A DNA stretch of 64,000 bases from Rhodoplanes tepidamans (lineage in GTDB: Bacteria; Pseudomonadota; Alphaproteobacteria; Rhizobiales; Xanthobacteraceae). Made by a program: the position numbers and the translations under genes. The stretch lies in the NCBI RefSeq assembly GCF_030813915.1, contig NZ_JAUSUJ010000009.1, forward strand, positions 62,001-126,000. Direction: 5' to 3'. Positions 46,425 to 54,503 of this stretch are shown here, piece by piece (the first letter of the stretch is position 1; each line of letters starts with the position of its first letter). The notes under the pieces were generated by a model, which saw nothing but the letters and a program-made list of their open reading frames with translations, did not search any database and was not told where the DNA came from.

Positions 46425-47861
46425 ATGTCCTTCACGATCGCCATTGTGGGGCGCCCCAATGTGGGCAAGTCGACCCTGTTCAACCGCCTCGTCGGCAAGC
46501 GCATCGCGCTGGTCGACGACCAGCCGGGCGTGACCCGCGACCGCCGCGAGGGCACGGGCCGGCTCGGCGACCTCGACTTCACCGTGATCGACACGGCCGG
46601 CTTCGAGGAGGCCGCGATCGAATCGCTCGCCGGCCGCATGCGGGCCCAGACCGAGACCGCGATGGCCCAGGCCGACGCGATCCTGTTCCTGATCGACGCC
46701 CGTGCCGGCCTCACCCCGATGGATCGCGCCTTCGCGGCGGCCGTGCGCAAGGTGGGGCGGCCGGTCGTGCTGGTCGCCAACAAGAGCGAGGGGCGCCAGG
46801 CGAGCTCCGGCGTCTACGAGGCGTTCGGGCTCGGGCTGGGCGAGCCGGTCGGCGTCTCGGCCGAGCATGGCGAGGGCCTCTCCGACCTCTACGACGCCCT
46901 GCGCGAGGCGCTGCCCGAAGCGACCCGGGCCGCCGCCGCCGCGACCAGGGCCGAGGTCCTGGCCGAGCGCGAGGCCAAGATCGTGGCCCGCGAGGCCAAG
47001 GCGGCCGGCGAGGAGCCGGTCGACCCGGGCGCGCCGACCCGGCCGATCCGCATGGCCGTGGTCGGCCGGCCCAACGCCGGCAAGTCGACCCTGATCAACC
47101 GGCTGCTCGGCACCGACCGGCTGCTCACCGGCCCCGAGGCCGGCATCACCCGCGACGCCATCGCGGTCGACCTCGACTGGGGCGGCCGGGCGTTCCAGGT
47201 GCACGACACCGCCGGCATGCGCCGCAAGTCCAAGATCGACGACAAGCTCGAGAAGATGTCGGTCTCGGACGGGCTCGAGGCGATCCGGTTCGCCGAGGTG
47301 GTCGTCCTGCTGATGGACGCCACCGCGCCGTTCGAGGAGCAGGATCTGCGCATCGCCGACCTCGTCGAGCGCGAGGGGCGGGCCCTGGTGCTGGGCCTCT
47401 CCAAGTGGGACCTCGCCGAGGGCGAGGCCGGAGCGCTCACGCGGCTGCGCGACGAGGTGGGGCACCGGCTGCCGCAGCTCGCCGGCCTGCCGGTGGTCGC
47501 CGTTTCGGGCCTCACCGGCCAGGGCCTCGACCGGCTGATGCAGGCCGTGCTCGACATCCACGCGATCTGGAACCGGCGGGTCCCGACCCACGCGCTCAAC
47601 CGCTGGCTCGATTCGGCGATCGACAACCATCCGCCACCCGCCGTCTCGGGCCGCCGGCTCAAGCTCAACTACATCACCCAGCCGAAGGCGCGGCCGCCGA
47701 GCTTCGTCGTCTTCTGCACCCGCGCCGACGCCGTGCCGGAATCCTACAAGCGCTACCTGATCAACGGTCTGCGCGAGAGCTTCGATCTCCCCGGCACGCC
47801 GATCCGCCTCACCCTGCGCGAAAAAGCCAACCCCTATGCGACCCGGGCCAAGGGGCGCTGA
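46425..47861 (+). CDS. der: Ribosome-associated GTPase Der (EngA)
   Basis: A 478-residue tandem GTPase with a KH-like C-terminal domain (about 385-478). G1 motifs GRPNVGKST (9-17) and GRPNAGKST (214-222) and both DTAG motifs are intact. G4 of the first domain is NKSE and of the second SKWD, where NKxD is usual; the second domain's Asn-to-Ser change is unusual. Der is needed for 50S subunit assembly. ATG at 46425; longer frames upstream run through the lipoprotein in another frame. The stop is 12 bases from the convergent SIR2 gene. Confidence 0.95.
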
Positions 47862-47873
47862 GGCGGGGCATCG

Positions 47874-50800
47874 TCACCGGTCGGCATCTTTCCGATCGAG
47901 CCCGGTCGCTTGCGGGACCACCGTGTTCTCGCGGTCCGATCCGCTGTCGGTCATGTGTCGCTGCAGGAGCAGCCGGTAGCCGATGCTGCGCGCCGCCTGG
48001 AGGGCTTGTCCCTTGATGCGGGTTGCCTCGTCGGTCCACCCGCGCTCGCGCAGGATGTCGGCGAGTAGGCTGCGATAGGCGATCGAACGCAGATATTGCC
48101 CGTGGAGCGTCGCGATTCGGATGGCCTTCACGGCCTTGTCGCTCGCGAGCGCGGTTTCGCCCTGCTGCAGCAGGATCTGCGCATGAACGAAGCTCGCCTC
48201 GGCGGTGAGGATCGGAATGTCCATGGCGCCGGCATAACGCTCCGCCTCTTCGAGGCATCTGGTTTGCTGTCGTAGGTCGTGCTGACGCGCGACGTTCATG
48301 CGGGCCTTCGCCACCATTGCGAGGTGAGCCATGTCCTCGAAGCCGCTGCGGCGGGCGTAATTGACGGAGGCGGACAGGTCTTCGCCCGCCTTGTCGTAAT
48401 CCTCCATGTCGCGATGCAGCTGCCCGCGATGGCGGAGGAACAGGCTGACGGATCTGCTCCGCCCGAGTCGGACGAGCCCCTTGATGGCGGTCCCGTATCC
48501 TCTGATCGCGGTGTCCCGGGCGCCGCCGAGATGGTCGAGCAGGGCGGTGTAGCCGCCGGCGATCAGCCGGATCGTCTCGTCCTCGCTCGACTCCCGCCGC
48601 ACCTCGTCCAGCAGGCGGCGTGCCTTCTTGAGGCGCCCGCGCATGATGTCGCATTCGGCGACATTGAGCAGCACCCGCCGACGGATCGGGCCACCCGCGG
48701 GTCCCTCGATCCGTCGTGCCGCCCTCAGGGCGGCGTCGAGCATCGCGATCGTGTCGACGAGCGATCCTTGGGCCAGCCCGAAGACGCCGCACTCGTTGAA
48801 GAGCCAGACGATCTCGTCGCGATAGAACGGTAGGTGACTTGGTGAGGCGGTAGAAGGCTCGGTCTCGCCGTCGCGTGTCGGAGTGCCGCCGAGCGCCGCG
48901 GCCCGGTGAAGCATCCAGCGTAGAATCAGGCGGTGGTGCTCGAAGTACCCGGACCGCGGCGGTTTCGGGACGCTGATTCCCCCGATGTCGCAGAAGCGGG
49001 CGACGACCCCGAGCGAGAACAGCGTCCTGGCGATACCGATCCCCGCGCGAAGACGCCTGGCCTCGAAGGTGCGCACCTCGCCGGGGCTCGATCCTGAGTC
49101 GGCGTCTGTGCACGAAGCCGGTTCGAACTCCGAGCGCAGGGTCGGAAACCCAATCATCCGGGTGACGAGGTCGTGCAGGAACGCGTAGGCGTTGGCGCTC
49201 AGGGCCGGCAGTTCGCGAGCCTGCGACGCATACAGCGACACCGAGAAGTTGTAGGTGTCGGGCGGCTCCGAGTATTGCGCCCCGAGCTTGCGGTAGGCGT
49301 GAAGTTGGACGGTGCGGTGCACCTGGTATCGTGGCGACTCAGGCGTTCGTCCGGCGGCGGGCCTTTCGTTGACGCCGTCCTCATGCACGGGGGGGATACG
49401 GGGCTCGAGCGTGAACACCAGTCCGCGGGCCGACAGCAGCGCGAGCGCATAACGGACGATGTCGAGGCGGAGGTGCCTGATCGGTACCGCAGCGCGCCCG
49501 TCGAACGAGTTGGACAGGTCCTCGACCCGCCGCTCGATCATCGGACATTCGAGCAGGATGTCGGCTTCCACCGGCATCGAGATGACGGCGAGATGGCGGA
49601 TCAGCAGCTCGAGCAGGCTGCTGTCGTGGGCGCAGCGTAACAAGTCATCGAATCGTTCCGGCTCGTGGCTCTCACCCTGTTCTTCGCGGAGCGTCCTGAA
49701 GCGATCTTTATCGAGATCGTGCAAATAGGGACGAGCCGCCCAGTAATCGAGAACGCGCTCGACGAAGCGTGGCGGGTCGATCCGGCCATCGACATCAGGA
49801 AGATTTCCGATCGACCCGCGGATTTGCGTCAGGTAGTCAATGCGTTTCAACGTTTCGAGGTCTTTATCGAGCAGAGTCGCCAGGGTGGCGTGGAAGCGGG
49901 ATGCAATCGGCGGCCCCGACGCGTGGTCAGCGGCGACGGTGGCAGGAATGAAATAGATGTAGCTGTCGTCCGCAGGCGGAACCGGACCTCTCGTGGCCGA
50001 GGAAACAGGCGAGCCGGCAGCCTGGAAACCGGGCGCGAGCCGCACTCCGGATCGCCGAACAGCCGCGGCCAACTGCTCTTGGGCGTGCGCGTGCGCGTGC
50101 AGGTCGCGGACCGAAGGAGCCGACAGGAGGCGGAGCGTGCGCGGCTCGCATTTGTCGCGACGATCGGAAGGCGAGGACGGGGGCGGGTCGATCCGATAAT
50201 GCAGCGGGAGCCGGGTGTCGCGCACCAGGAAGACGAGGTCGAGCGGCAAATCGGCCCGGTCCGGCGAGGTCAGCAGGTCGAAGATCGCCCGGATCTCGGC
50301 GCTTTTCGGGTATCCGTCGGCCTCGAACGCGAGACCAAAGGCATTGAGGAGGATCAGGCCGCGCGCCTCGACGGGCCCGCAACGGTGGTGCAGCCGACCA
50401 GCCGTCTGCTTGAGCTGGGCGGCCGTACCGTCGAGCGCCGCCGCCAAGGCGGCGATGCGTCCCTGGCCACCGGTCCACATGGGATGTTGCACGAGTGTGT
50501 CGGACGCCGGCCGCAGCGGATCGAGCAGGAACGCCGTGAGCGCGTCCCAGACCGACGCGATCTCGCTGAAGAAGCTGAAGCTCGCCGAGAAGATCGCGGC
50601 GTAGTGCCGTCCGGTCGCGTTGCGCCTCGGCTCGATGCGGATGGGATTGTCCTCGAGCAGGCGGTCGCTGCACTCGGTGAGGTCACGGTGCAGGCCTCCT
50701 TTACCGCCGCCGCGCGGCGCGGCGACGAAGACGATGCGCCGGCCGGGCGCACGGAAGCTGTCTCGCCGCGGCCATGCTGCGACGAGATCATCGAGCATGG

Positions 50801-53015
50801 AACGGTCGGGCCGTAAGGTGTCGCGCTCCCGGTTCTTGCCGGCAGGCGGGTTCCACCAGATGTGACGCGTCCAACGTGGGCGTTCGAGACGAGCCGCCTT
50901 GGGCGGAGACTCGAGATTCTCGATGCGGCTTTGCGGAATCGCCAGCCATTCGGTTGACCACGTCTGCCAATCGCTCTCGAGTTTCTTCAGGCAGGCTGTC
51001 AGCGCAGCGATCCTGATGGCGTCCTCGATGCGCCGCACGGTCCGCTTGAGGAGCGAGATGGCCTTCTCTTTGGGACCATCGGAGAGCTCATCGAGCAGCG
51101 AAGCACCGTGCTGCTCCACCAGCGTCCCGATCCAGGCGAGCAGTTGCAGTTCGAGGCCGATGGAACAACCGGTCTTCTTGCAGACGGCATCCGCCGCATT
51201 GCGGCTTAGCGGCGGGCCGAGGTCGATGCCGGAAGTCACCGGATCCCTCGGAGGGTCGGCAGGAGCGCCTAGGAAATCGAGCAGGCCTTCGAACGCCTGC
51301 CGAGGGGAGCGGGTCCGCGGAGAGCTGGGTAAGCCGTCCAGTGAGGCAACGATCGTTTCGGTCAACTCGAAGACCCTGGCGAGCCAGCTCGGATCCGGGG
51401 GTTCCTCGTCGGAAGAGGGCTTCACGTCCCCGGGACCAAGAATGCCGTAGTGCAGGACGTAGACGCCATGCCGGATGTACTGCTCCAGGGTGAACTTGTC
51501 GCGTTTCGCCTTCGGCTCGGTGGCGGGCCGCAGGGCGACGACCGAATGATTACCGCGGATATGCTCGCCGGCGAACTCGCGCAGCGGCCGCATCAGGTCA
51601 CCCTCCGACAGCCCGACGCCGACGAAGAGAATCGGATTTCCACCGAAGAGGATCTGCGATCCTTGACGGAACAGGACCTTGTGCCGCTCATCGCCGATGT
51701 ACTGGTCCTGATAGTCGCGATCGGTGACGACGAGCGGTGCTTCGTCGGTCGCCCGGCCATGGACGTGAACGACCTGGATCGAATGCGGATTGGCCCCAGC
51801 CGCGAAATCGAGAAGGTCGACGGCGTTGTTTTCGCCCAGAACGATGTCGCGTGCGCGACCGCCCATCGGTCCGATGCGCTCGATCTCGTCGTCGGAGAGA
51901 TCGTCCTGTGCTCCGAACGTCGTTCGTTTGAAGCCCAGCTGATCGATCAGCCGCTCGATCTCCAGGTCGTAATTCGTGGTGACGAAGCGCCCGACCTCGA
52001 GACCGACCGCGAGGTGCCACAGCGGATCCTTGTCGGGCGACGCGATCTCGGTTCGGCGGATTGGGACCGTGTTCGACAAGGCCGCATCGGGGGCGATGGC
52101 ACCCGCGATCGTTTTCATTCCGTCTTTTGGCGGTGTCTTCGTCAGCAGATGAAATGTCCGGATCAGATCGATAGCGAAGCCGAGAGCGTGGTAGTTGACG
52201 GGGTCGAGGCCCGCCCGTGAGTTGGAGTGCGACACCGACAACTCTTCCGACAGGCGATCGAGTATCGCGGTGGATAAAGCGAGGAGGACATGTGGGTTCT
52301 GTGGAGCGAGACTGCCCACGTAGTCACGAGCGGCACTCACGACCTTGGTCGAGAAGATGTTGTGGAGCCGGCGACTGTGGTTGCCGGGAAATCGCGTCAT
52401 CGAGGTGTGCGCCAACCCACGGGCGATGGCGTCGATCGAATCGCGATCGTTGTACGGATTCGAAAGGATCCGGCGGACATGATGTGTCTCGTCGTAGGTC
52501 GCCTGCTTGATCGAACGCCGGAAGCGGTCGCGGCGATAGAGGTCGGACTTGCGTGACGGCGGGAGGTCGCGTTCGGTTTCTCCGATGCAAAAGTGGGATT
52601 CCAGCGCGTTCAGCAGCGGCTTGTCGGCCAGGATCCAGATCTGCTCGGCGATCTGCATGGCGAGCATAATGGCGTCGGACTTCTCGGCCTTGACCTCGAC
52701 GAGGAGGTTCTTGAGCTGCGTCTTCAGAGAGACGATCGGACCGGGCTGAGCGTGTCCGGAACTCTCGGATGCATTAATCGTGTCGAGGATTCCGGTGACG
52801 ACGTGACCTCCGAGCTCGCCCCATGACACGCGTCCATAGGCCATCGAAGCTCCGGCGCCGACGAAGGCGACCAGACGCCGGGTGTTGAGCGCGCGACAAA
52901 GAAAAAAGCGGCCTTGCGCCTCGATACGTCGCGGATCGAGCAGCGCCGTCGCGGCCTCCCAGTTGTACGGCCATGCAGCATCGTGCAATCCATTGTCGCG
53001 CAATCCGTTCGACAT
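47874..53015 (-). CDS. Giant SIR2 domain - STAND-like - TPR protein (candidate anti-phage effector)
   Basis: A 1713-residue protein from the ATG at 53015 (AGAGAGA lies about 10 bases upstream; an earlier in-frame start at 53135 would add 40 residues). The SIR2 domain occupies about 45-500: GAGAS (53-57), TTNYD with N348, HVHG with H419 and FVGVGLSEGD (464-473), so NAD-binding and catalytic residues are all present. A central region has a degenerate P-loop APRGGGKGG (766-774, lacking the Ser/Thr), a Walker B-like hydrophobic strand (887-893) and a STAND sensor-like LVFLVRDTRLP (927-937). The C-terminus (about 1390-1690) is TPR-like helices. This fits NAD-depleting single-protein defences such as SIR2-STAND and DSR types. 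GC is visibly lower than in flanking genes, suggesting transfer. Confidence 0.85.
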   Translation of the reverse strand: MSNGLRDNGLHDAAWPYNWEAATALLDPRRIEAQGRFFLCRALNTRRLVAFVGAGASMAYGRVSWGELGGHVVTGILDTINASESSGHAQPGPIVSLKTQLKNLLVEVKAEKSDAIMLAMQIAEQIWILADKPLLNALESHFCIGETERDLPPSRKSDLYRRDRFRRSIKQATYDETHHVRRILSNPYNDRDSIDAIARGLAHTSMTRFPGNHSRRLHNIFSTKVVSAARDYVGSLAPQNPHVLLALSTAILDRLSEELSVSHSNSRAGLDPVNYHALGFAIDLIRTFHLLTKTPPKDGMKTIAGAIAPDAALSNTVPIRRTEIASPDKDPLWHLAVGLEVGRFVTTNYDLEIERLIDQLGFKRTTFGAQDDLSDDEIERIGPMGGRARDIVLGENNAVDLLDFAAGANPHSIQVVHVHGRATDEAPLVVTDRDYQDQYIGDERHKVLFRQGSQILFGGNPILFVGVGLSEGDLMRPLREFAGEHIRGNHSVVALRPATEPKAKRDKFTLEQYIRHGVYVLHYGILGPGDVKPSSDEEPPDPSWLARVFELTETIVASLDGLPSSPRTRSPRQAFEGLLDFLGAPADPPRDPVTSGIDLGPPLSRNAADAVCKKTGCSIGLELQLLAWIGTLVEQHGASLLDELSDGPKEKAISLLKRTVRRIEDAIRIAALTACLKKLESDWQTWSTEWLAIPQSRIENLESPPKAARLERPRWTRHIWWNPPAGKNRERDTLRPDRSMLDDLVAAWPRRDSFRAPGRRIVFVAAPRGGGKGGLHRDLTECSDRLLEDNPIRIEPRRNATGRHYAAIFSASFSFFSEIASVWDALTAFLLDPLRPASDTLVQHPMWTGGQGRIAALAAALDGTAAQLKQTAGRLHHRCGPVEARGLILLNAFGLAFEADGYPKSAEIRAIFDLLTSPDRADLPLDLVFLVRDTRLPLHYRIDPPPSSPSDRRDKCEPRTLRLLSAPSVRDLHAHAHAQEQLAAAVRRSGVRLAPGFQAAGSPVSSATRGPVPPADDSYIYFIPATVAADHASGPPIASRFHATLATLLDKDLETLKRIDYLTQIRGSIGNLPDVDGRIDPPRFVERVLDYWAARPYLHDLDKDRFRTLREEQGESHEPERFDDLLRCAHDSSLLELLIRHLAVISMPVEADILLECPMIERRVEDLSNSFDGRAAVPIRHLRLDIVRYALALLSARGLVFTLEPRIPPVHEDGVNERPAAGRTPESPRYQVHRTVQLHAYRKLGAQYSEPPDTYNFSVSLYASQARELPALSANAYAFLHDLVTRMIGFPTLRSEFEPASCTDADSGSSPGEVRTFEARRLRAGIGIARTLFSLGVVARFCDIGGISVPKPPRSGYFEHHRLILRWMLHRAAALGGTPTRDGETEPSTASPSHLPFYRDEIVWLFNECGVFGLAQGSLVDTIAMLDAALRAARRIEGPAGGPIRRRVLLNVAECDIMRGRLKKARRLLDEVRRESSEDETIRLIAGGYTALLDHLGGARDTAIRGYGTAIKGLVRLGRSRSVSLFLRHRGQLHRDMEDYDKAGEDLSASVNYARRSGFEDMAHLAMVAKARMNVARQHDLRQQTRCLEEAERYAGAMDIPILTAEASFVHAQILLQQGETALASDKAVKAIRIATLHGQYLRSIAYRSLLADILRERGWTDEATRIKGQALQAARSIGYRLLLQRHMTDSGSDRENTVVPQATGLDRKDADR

Positions 53016-53228
53016 CGCTGTCTCTCTCTGAAATACCGCAAACAATACGCAATCAATGATAGAAAATGACAATAGTGCACGCAAGCGCTCGTCTCCCGTC
53101 GGGTTCTCGACGGCTTTCCGAATGCGATGAGCCACATTTCAAGGGGCTGCCGGTCATGCAGGAGATGCGACGACGGGGCGTAGAGCGGAGCAACGATCCT
53201 GGATCGGCACGCGAAACGGCGCCCCCTC

Positions 53229-54503
53229 GTGGCTGAGGCGGCGGCCCCGACGGGACAGGCTCGTCCAGGTCCGGCCAAGCAGGGGCCGGACGCACCGCCC
53301 GGCCACGGACGGCGCCGCGCGGCGTTCGGGTTCGTCTTCGTCACGGTGGCGATCGACATGCTGTCGGTCGGCATCTTCGTGCCGGTGCTGCCGCGGCTGG
53401 TCGCCGACTTCATGGGCGGCGACGAGGTGGCGGCGGCCTCGATGTACGGGCTGTTCGGCACCGCCTTCGCGCTGATGCAGTTCGCCTTCTCGCCCGTGCA
53501 GGGGGCGCTGTCGGACCGCTTCGGCCGGCGGCCCGTGATCCTGATCTCCAATCTCGGGGTCGGCCTCGACTACGTCGTCATGGCGCTGGCGCCGTCCATC
53601 TGGTGGCTGCTCGCCGGGCGGGTGATCTCCGGCATCGCCTCGGCCTCGATCGCCACCGCCTTCGCCTACATCGCCGACGTGACCGAGCCGGAGAAGCGGG
53701 CCGCCCGCTTCGGCATGCTGGGCGCCGCCTTCGGGCTCGGCTTCGTGCTCGGCCCGGCGATCGGCGGGCTCGCCGGCAGCGTCGATCCGCGCCTGCCGTT
53801 CTGGATCGCCGCCGGCCTGAGCCTGCTCAACGCCTGCTACGGCTATTTCGTGCTGCCGGAGTCGCTGCCGCCGGAGAAGCGGGCGCCGCTGTCCCTCGCC
53901 CGGGCCAACCCGCTCGGCGCGCTCGTGCTGCTGCGCTCGCAGCCGCAGCTGCTCGGCCTCGCCGGGGTGTGGTTCGTCAGCCAGCTCGCCCATTTCGTGC
54001 TGCCGACCATCGGGGTGCTCTACCTCACCTTCCGCTATGGCTGGGACGAACGCACCATCGGCTTCACCATGGCGGCCGTCGGGCTCGCGGCCGTGATCGT
54101 CCAGGGCGGCCTGATCGGGCCCGGCGTCCGCCTCGTCGGCGAGCGCGCCGCGCTGATCGGCGGCTTCGCGGCCGGCATGGTCGGGCTCTCCATCCAGGGG
54201 CTGGCGCCGGAGGGCTGGATGTTCTGGCTCGGCATCCCGTTCACCAGCCTGTGGGGCTTCGCCAACGCGGCCGGCAACAGCCTGATGAGCCGCCGCCTCG
54301 GCCCCTCCGAGCAGGGCCGCCTGCAGGGCGCCAATGCCTGCCTGATGGGGATCGCCGGGCTGATCGGGCCGGGCCTGTTCTCCCAGGTCTATGCGCTCGC
54401 GCTGGCCAGCCCGGGCACCTTCCCGGGGCCGGGCGCCCCGTTCTTCCTCGCCGTCGCGCTGATCCTCGTCGCCATGCTGATGGCGGTACGGGCCAGCCGG
54501 TAG
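53229..54503 (+). CDS. MFS transporter, TCR/Tet-like
   Basis: A 424-residue major facilitator with twelve predicted helices. Motif A is SPVQGALSDRFGRRPV in loop 2-3 and motif C is GLGFVLGPAIGGLAG in helix 5, both drug:proton antiporter marks. Similarity to the TCR/Tet subgroup is by these motifs and layout; no claim of tetracycline transport is made. The GTG start at 53229 gives a 30-residue Pro-rich N-terminus. It is divergent from the SIR2 gene. Confidence 0.88.
   Translation: MAEAAAPTGQARPGPAKQGPDAPPGHGRRRAAFGFVFVTVAIDMLSVGIFVPVLPRLVADFMGGDEVAAASMYGLFGTAFALMQFAFSPVQGALSDRFGRRPVILISNLGVGLDYVVMALAPSIWWLLAGRVISGIASASIATAFAYIADVTEPEKRAARFGMLGAAFGLGFVLGPAIGGLAGSVDPRLPFWIAAGLSLLNACYGYFVLPESLPPEKRAPLSLARANPLGALVLLRSQPQLLGLAGVWFVSQLAHFVLPTIGVLYLTFRYGWDERTIGFTMAAVGLAAVIVQGGLIGPGVRLVGERAALIGGFAAGMVGLSIQGLAPEGWMFWLGIPFTSLWGFANAAGNSLMSRRLGPSEQGRLQGANACLMGIAGLIGPGLFSQVYALALASPGTFPGPGAPFFLAVALILVAMLMAVRASR

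Follow-up and report, generated by a model that had tools for sequence, protein, structure and literature searches.

A rare giant SIR2-TPR protein with a non-canonical P-loop downstream of der in Rhodoplanes tepidamans: a candidate single-protein immune receptor

The window analyzed here, a stretch of 64,000 nucleotides (64 kb) from Rhodoplanes tepidamans, carries at 47874..53015 (-) a gene for a protein of 1713 aa, which combines an N-terminal SIR2 domain, a P-loop-like segment and C-terminal TPRs in one chain and has homologues along nearly its whole length. The frame is open from 47874 to 53135 (-), and translation from the ATG at 53015 results in the 1713 aa. Since the conserved stretch starts only at about residue 15 (WPY in the window protein and several relatives), this ATG is a likelier start than the upstream GTG. 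The stop codon of der ends at 47861 and that of the SIR2-TPR gene begins at 47874, leaving the 12 bases between the two genes that had been noted in an earlier sequence-only reading of this DNA. The same reading had described a base composition unlike that of the flanking genes and a lack of mobile-element neighbors, and both descriptions hold. The gene shows a GC content of 65.0% and a GC3 of 0.79, compared to 71-73% and 0.92-0.975 for the der, MFS, panB and acyltransferase genes. Eight of the ten neighboring ORFs scanned belong to Pfam families, none of them a mobile-element family, and two gave no match; no defense gene was found around der among the Pfam matches of these ten ORFs.

The SIR2 domain covers residues ~45-530 (51426..52883, -), as supported by the SIR2_2 match and by matches of the family profile to SIR2 proteins in the PDB. 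The GAGAS motif lies at residues 53-57 (52845..52859, -), the TTNYD motif with N348 at residues 346-350 (51966..51980, -) and the HVHG motif with H419 at residues 417-420 (51756..51767, -). The positions of GAGAS, N348 and H419 had been given correctly before, and APRGGGKGG, noted earlier as well, lies at residues 766-774. Pfam SIR2_2 (PF13289) matched residues 344-505 with an E-value of 6.9e-12 and 46.1 bits, compared to a curated cut-off of 24.5. Motifs were tabulated for 13 family proteins, 12 of them full-length and one an N-terminal half. The Asn and the His were found in all 13 and the first Gly motif (G-x-G) in 12, in agreement with the intact SIR2 domain claimed earlier. The distance from the first Gly motif to the Asn ranged from 148 to 483 residues, and the long insert of the window protein between the first and the second motif (~60-330) was mostly helical in a low-confidence AlphaFold model. 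A profile of the SIR2 region matched the PDB entries 7uxt (E 3.8e-8; labeled 'USG protein' in the match list), KomC (1.5e-6) and ThsA (0.0057), in a list that also includes chance matches, for example to MAP kinase 7 (E 0.04). The PADLOC models for ThsA, PDC-S25 and Dsr1 matched 11 of 11 SIR2 regions at E <= 1. On the window protein the Dsr1 model reached 19 bits, with its best stretch at residues 414-474 only, so that the match does not extend over its full length. Judged by these motifs and matches, the N-terminal SIR2 domain is probably able to destroy the NAD of the cell.

At the other end, the proposed TPR region was confirmed at residues ~1415-1679 (47979..48773, -) by Pfam TPR_12 (best stretch residues 1415-1472, E 3.3e-9) and by profile matches to TPR proteins of known structure. 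TPR_MalT matched residues 1445-1679 below its Pfam cut-off. The stretch between SIR2_2 and the TPRs of the window protein gave no match in the Pfam scan, and NCBIfam gave none for the four proteins of the family that were scanned. The defense candidate is thus detected by Pfam and PADLOC only through its SIR2 and TPR ends, and by NCBIfam not at all.

The middle part contains the P-loop-like motif APRGGGKGG (residues 766-774; 50694..50720, -). The canonical Walker A motif GxxxxGK[ST] is absent from all 13 proteins, which show G-x-G-[KR]-G in its place, with Gly directly following a P-loop Lys in eight and an Arg in five of them; seven carry a Ser or Thr one position further on. The missing P-loop Ser/Thr is therefore a trait of the family. 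The sequence-only reading had attributed it to decay in this protein, an explanation that finds no support in this form, and a private decay of the P-loop was rejected in view of the common motif. Since adenylate kinases work with a GKGT loop (one such sequence was seen among the comparison sets), G-x-G-[KR]-G alone is no proof of inactivity. A Walker B-like strand, LILLNAFG at residues 887-894 (50334..50357, -), can be assigned by alignment, and at its acidic position the alignment places Asp in eight, Glu in three and Gly in two of the 13 proteins. The two with Gly are the window protein and L004, so that the window copy, with GKGG and without the Walker B-like acid, departs further from the usual motifs than most.

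The middle part had also been read as a STAND NTPase, for which the searches gave no direct confirmation. No STAND, NACHT, NB-ARC or nSTAND3 model matched in Pfam and PADLOC, nor in NCBIfam for the four proteins scanned there. In particular, a search at E <= 10 detected nSTAND3 (PF20720) neither in the window protein nor in the middle part of 11 members, and a search at 1e-6 did not detect it in the genome of the window, where 18 of 206 first-look candidates were scored. A NACHT search of the relatives returned matches mostly below the family cut-off, and a profile of the middle region gave one weak PDB match, to the P-loop of VirB11 (E 0.08). Two AlphaFold models, of the SIR2 and the middle part, were calculated from alignments of four rows and reached a mean pLDDT of 40; at this low confidence, strands and helices follow each other across residues 760-931 as they would in a P-loop fold. 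Foldseek with the middle model showed no match at E <= 0.001 (best E 0.11), and the many P-loop ATPases (such as DnaB, ORC2 and NB-ARC) among the best 50 of 217 matches are not significant. In hhalign comparisons of the core region with NB-ARC, NACHT, adenylate kinase, Der and nSTAND3, the P-loop alone was aligned, at probabilities of 0.17-2.8%. The score for nSTAND3 was 24.3 compared to 14.7-17.4 for the other sets, but this does not discriminate, because the sets were small and several contained short or wrong-frame ORFs. Since none of these models matched and the predicted structures are poor, we infer the STAND label from the domain order and the position of the P-loop. The arrangement of an effector, a P-loop-like hub and TPRs, as in Avs5 and SAMD9, would by analogy argue for it.

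The SIR2-TPR family is rare, scattered and located at unlike sites. Its members have lengths of 1570-2451 aa, most of them measured as stop-to-stop frames, and the window protein shares 37% identity with L003 over residues 12-928 and 43% over residues 1040-1686. A homologue was found in 3 of 60 related genomes including that of the window, whereas the five other genomes of its genus had none. Within its own family, the genome of the window was the only one of 36 with a match; the two other matches among the 60 belong to other families of the order. In the class, 7 of 385 genomes matched, again including its own, one of them (G401) through a weak match to a different SIR2 protein in a frame of 314 aa. 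At the level of the phylum, a C-terminal profile matched 4 of 398 genomes at E <= 1e-10, of which one is the own genome and two are weak. A pattern-limited scan of 84,980 genomes returned five loci with four long matches, two of these encoding one protein. These two, L002 and L003, are identical 1708-aa frames in MAGs of one project labeled Binataceae and Xanthobacteraceae, which probably results from a mis-binned contig, and L002 was left out of the counts. We did not include G401 (L034), L006 and the weak matches G450 and G615 among the members, and the motif table also leaves out the C-terminal half of G092 and G669. In the latter, the homologue at G669:C5:4206-5839 occupies two adjoining stretches in different open frames (1862 + 157 aa), due to either a broken gene or a sequencing error. 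Among 72,556 plasmid records, two carry a homologue, a conjugative plasmid of Azospirillum lipoferum 4B and a plasmid of Methylobacterium sp. FF17, both with transposases near the copy; the copy at L027 lies ~4 kb from a phage-type integrase. No relative was present among 50,697 phage records, and none was confirmed in viral contigs by one pattern-limited scan.

A comparison of the region downstream of der had been suggested for distinguishing presence from absence in relatives, and it shows such a pattern. The der query matched all 20 genomes, including the own one; the match in G005 (58% complete) was weak, as to another GTPase. The SIR2-TPR gene is absent from all eight related der-downstream regions compared. 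In five of these, among them the four from the same genus in which der is complete, the MFS gene adjoins der within ~250 bp; in G001 and G004 it could use an in-frame ATG located within the end of der. By contrast, der and the MFS gene of the window are split by ~5.37 kb, in which the SIR2-TPR gene is the only gene seen. The promoter-side part of this insert, 216 bp at 53016..53231 upstream of the gene, matched nothing where der and the MFS gene meet in the relatives. The MFS ORF of the window (53229-54503) has a GTG start beside the right copy of the repeat described below, compared to the in-frame ATG within der in G001 and G004. The sequence-only reading had named two grounds that would speak against it, a SIR2 match lacking Asn or His and a conserved non-defense locus in most relatives; instead, both residues are present in 13 of 13 proteins, and the gene occupies 0 of 8 related der regions.

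The edges of the insert share a 10-bp direct repeat, GCTGAGGCGG, whose left copy (47857..47866, +) lies over the der stop codon and whose right copy (53232..53241, +) lies where the MFS ORF starts; it occurs only these two times on the forward strand of the window. However, random window segments of the lengths first searched (160 + 340 bp) shared a 10-mer in 6338 of 20,000 draws (32%), and the repeat is accordingly no longer taken to prove a duplicating insertion. For segments of 40 + 105 bp, lengths chosen after the repeat had been seen, the value was 484 of 20,000 (2.4%); an earlier run at these lengths, in which draws lying too close were skipped yet counted, gave 442 of 20,000. As a mark of insertion the repeat is only suggestive, and a duplicating insertion that left both neighbors whole is possible. 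Because the finding that relatives lack the gene is independent of the repeat, the weakness of the latter does not affect the probabilities given below. The gene apparently was inserted into the chromosome recently.

Two other sites could be compared with relatives. In G045, homology to relatives stops ~100 bp before the stop of the SIR2 gene, just after an oxidoreductase gene. G805 shows the same oxidoreductase edge, followed by EcoRII, Vsr and cytosine methylase genes; the left edge is thus common to both and the right edge is not. In G808, the other relative compared at this site, the family scan ended at that edge. The EcoRII-Vsr-cytosine methylase genes of G805 (L135:2684-5658) and the SIR2 gene of G045 (L026:7371) come after one and the same oxidoreductase gene, which could mark a slot for the insertion of defense genes. 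In G234, the SIR2 gene lies between an ABC-F gene (ettA-like by sequence) and carB, where the same-genus genomes G330, G797 and G798 contain 1.8-3.4 kb of other DNA. In G330 this DNA encodes BrnT and HTH proteins and in G797 Phd and PIN proteins; from G798 a single ORF was scanned, with no family match. For G802, G803 and G800 the match was confined to ettA, and no further homology appeared over the length compared; G799 and G801 of the same genus were not part of the comparison. Within one genus, the DNA between ettA and carB thus differs in both size and content (L033:6349-11523; L128, L130, L131). PADLOC found no match among ten neighbor ORFs, taken as longest non-overlapping frames, at five other loci. 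A role in defense would be favored indirectly by the defense-type genes that relatives carry at these two sites, by the eight der regions without the gene and by the two plasmid-borne copies.

Several known systems resemble the window protein. Avs5 (AVAST type 5; SIR2-nSTAND3-repeats) is likewise a single protein with an N-terminal SIR2_2, a central ATPase-like part and C-terminal TPR-type repeats. Its defense against jumbo phage requires each of the three parts, SIR2, ATPase and repeats; a phage protein is sensed, and the Walker B of PaAvs5-1 is also incomplete, with one acid (PMC12931631). SAMD9/SAMD9L, known from animals and actinobacteria, has a family-wide non-canonical P-loop in which the Lys is replaced, with GG[TS] (PMC5445408). 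By plan, these proteins share with the present family the order of SIR2-like, STAND-like P-loop and TPR parts, but here the Lys/Arg is kept and the Ser/Thr is Gly. AlbA_2 and the OB-fold, parts of the SAMD9 family, gave no match in the window protein in the Pfam scan. The plan of effector, NTPase and sensor is also found in bNACHT proteins with SIR2 or TIR effectors (PMC10952713), whereas the window family shows no NACHT match. DSR1/DSR2, ThsA and KomC have the same SIR2 type and motifs. To our knowledge, they lack the middle and TPR arrangement of the window protein. In a literature search on SIR2/STAND/TPR and degenerate Walker A, the family was not found in titles and the starts of abstracts, a weak negative since few subscription papers were covered.

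Altogether, we assume with a probability of about 0.6 that the gene arrived by horizontal transfer and encodes a single-protein immune receptor. The protein is best read as an Avs5-like and SAMD9-like SIR2 NADase receptor that belongs to a distinct family, one whose P-loop is non-canonical. Receptors with a SIR2 effector are known already; the present family is a variant of them with G-x-G-[KR]-G in all 13 proteins compared. The NADase activity, the sensing by TPRs, the STAND-like switch and the role in defense are all predicted from sequence. The TPR end would hold the protein off and recognize a component of an invader, either phage or plasmid. The central P-loop-like module would pass the signal on, most likely by nucleotide-dependent assembly, and the N-terminal SIR2 domain would then cleave NAD+, stopping the cell or the infection.

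An ordinary, divergent Avs5 protein would share the order of SIR2, ATPase-like and TPR parts as well as PF13289, and the three Avs5 proteins tested are only 18-21% identical to each other (PMC12931631). We consider this improbable, given that nSTAND3 was not found in any of the model searches described above, for which reason Avs5 was also rejected as the family name. Furthermore, the present proteins are about twice as long or more and carry the long insert inside SIR2: the residues named for PaAvs5-1 reach 828 and its SIR2 motifs lie 86 residues apart, compared to 1570-2451 aa (mostly stop-to-stop) and 148-483 residues here. The P-loop of PaAvs5-1 is the canonical GPAGSGKT, compared to Gly after the P-loop Lys here, and the HG motif is Asn-Gly in about half of Avs5 but His-Gly in 13 of 13 family proteins (Avs5 values from PMC12931631). 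The receptor might instead be directed against plasmids or other mobile elements and not phages. Since two members lie on plasmids near transposases and the L027 copy lies near an integrase, competition between mobile elements is possible. Nothing in the present data tells the triggers apart, but Avs5, the most similar architecture with experimental tests, responds to a phage protein, and we regard this alternative as unlikely.

A signaling or regulatory function outside defense, as a MalT-like TPR regulator whose SIR2 domain has another activity, could account for the TPR_MalT match, although this match is below its cut-off. SIR2 domains can have activities other than NAD cleavage. The SIR2 type is nevertheless that of known SIR2 defenses, the presence is sporadic and at unlike sites, and restriction-modification and toxin-antitoxin genes occupy the corresponding sites of relatives, which makes this as improbable as the Avs5 assignment. 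A decaying relic on its way to a pseudogene is very improbable. It would be in line with the lack of both the Ser/Thr after the P-loop Lys and the Walker B-like acid in the window copy, but the Ser/Thr is missing in the whole family (and the acid in L004 as well), 1713 codons are free of stops, the SIR2 catalytic residues are intact and identity to L003 is retained over both halves.

Taking the protein as an immune receptor, a more specific possibility can be put forward tentatively: that these proteins form a family of giant SIR2 receptors in which binding or release of a nucleotide, and not its hydrolysis, arms the NADase, by means of a P-loop without the Mg2+-binding Ser/Thr. This would be a bacterial parallel to SAMD9, whose P-loop is broken at the neighboring residue. 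The family adds one further defense candidate, recognized by Pfam and PADLOC at its ends only, to the receptors with SIR2 effectors that tie bacterial to animal immunity. A fixed non-canonical P-loop on the same plan would allow a test of the need for nucleotide hydrolysis in such receptors, a question that has also been raised for SAMD9.
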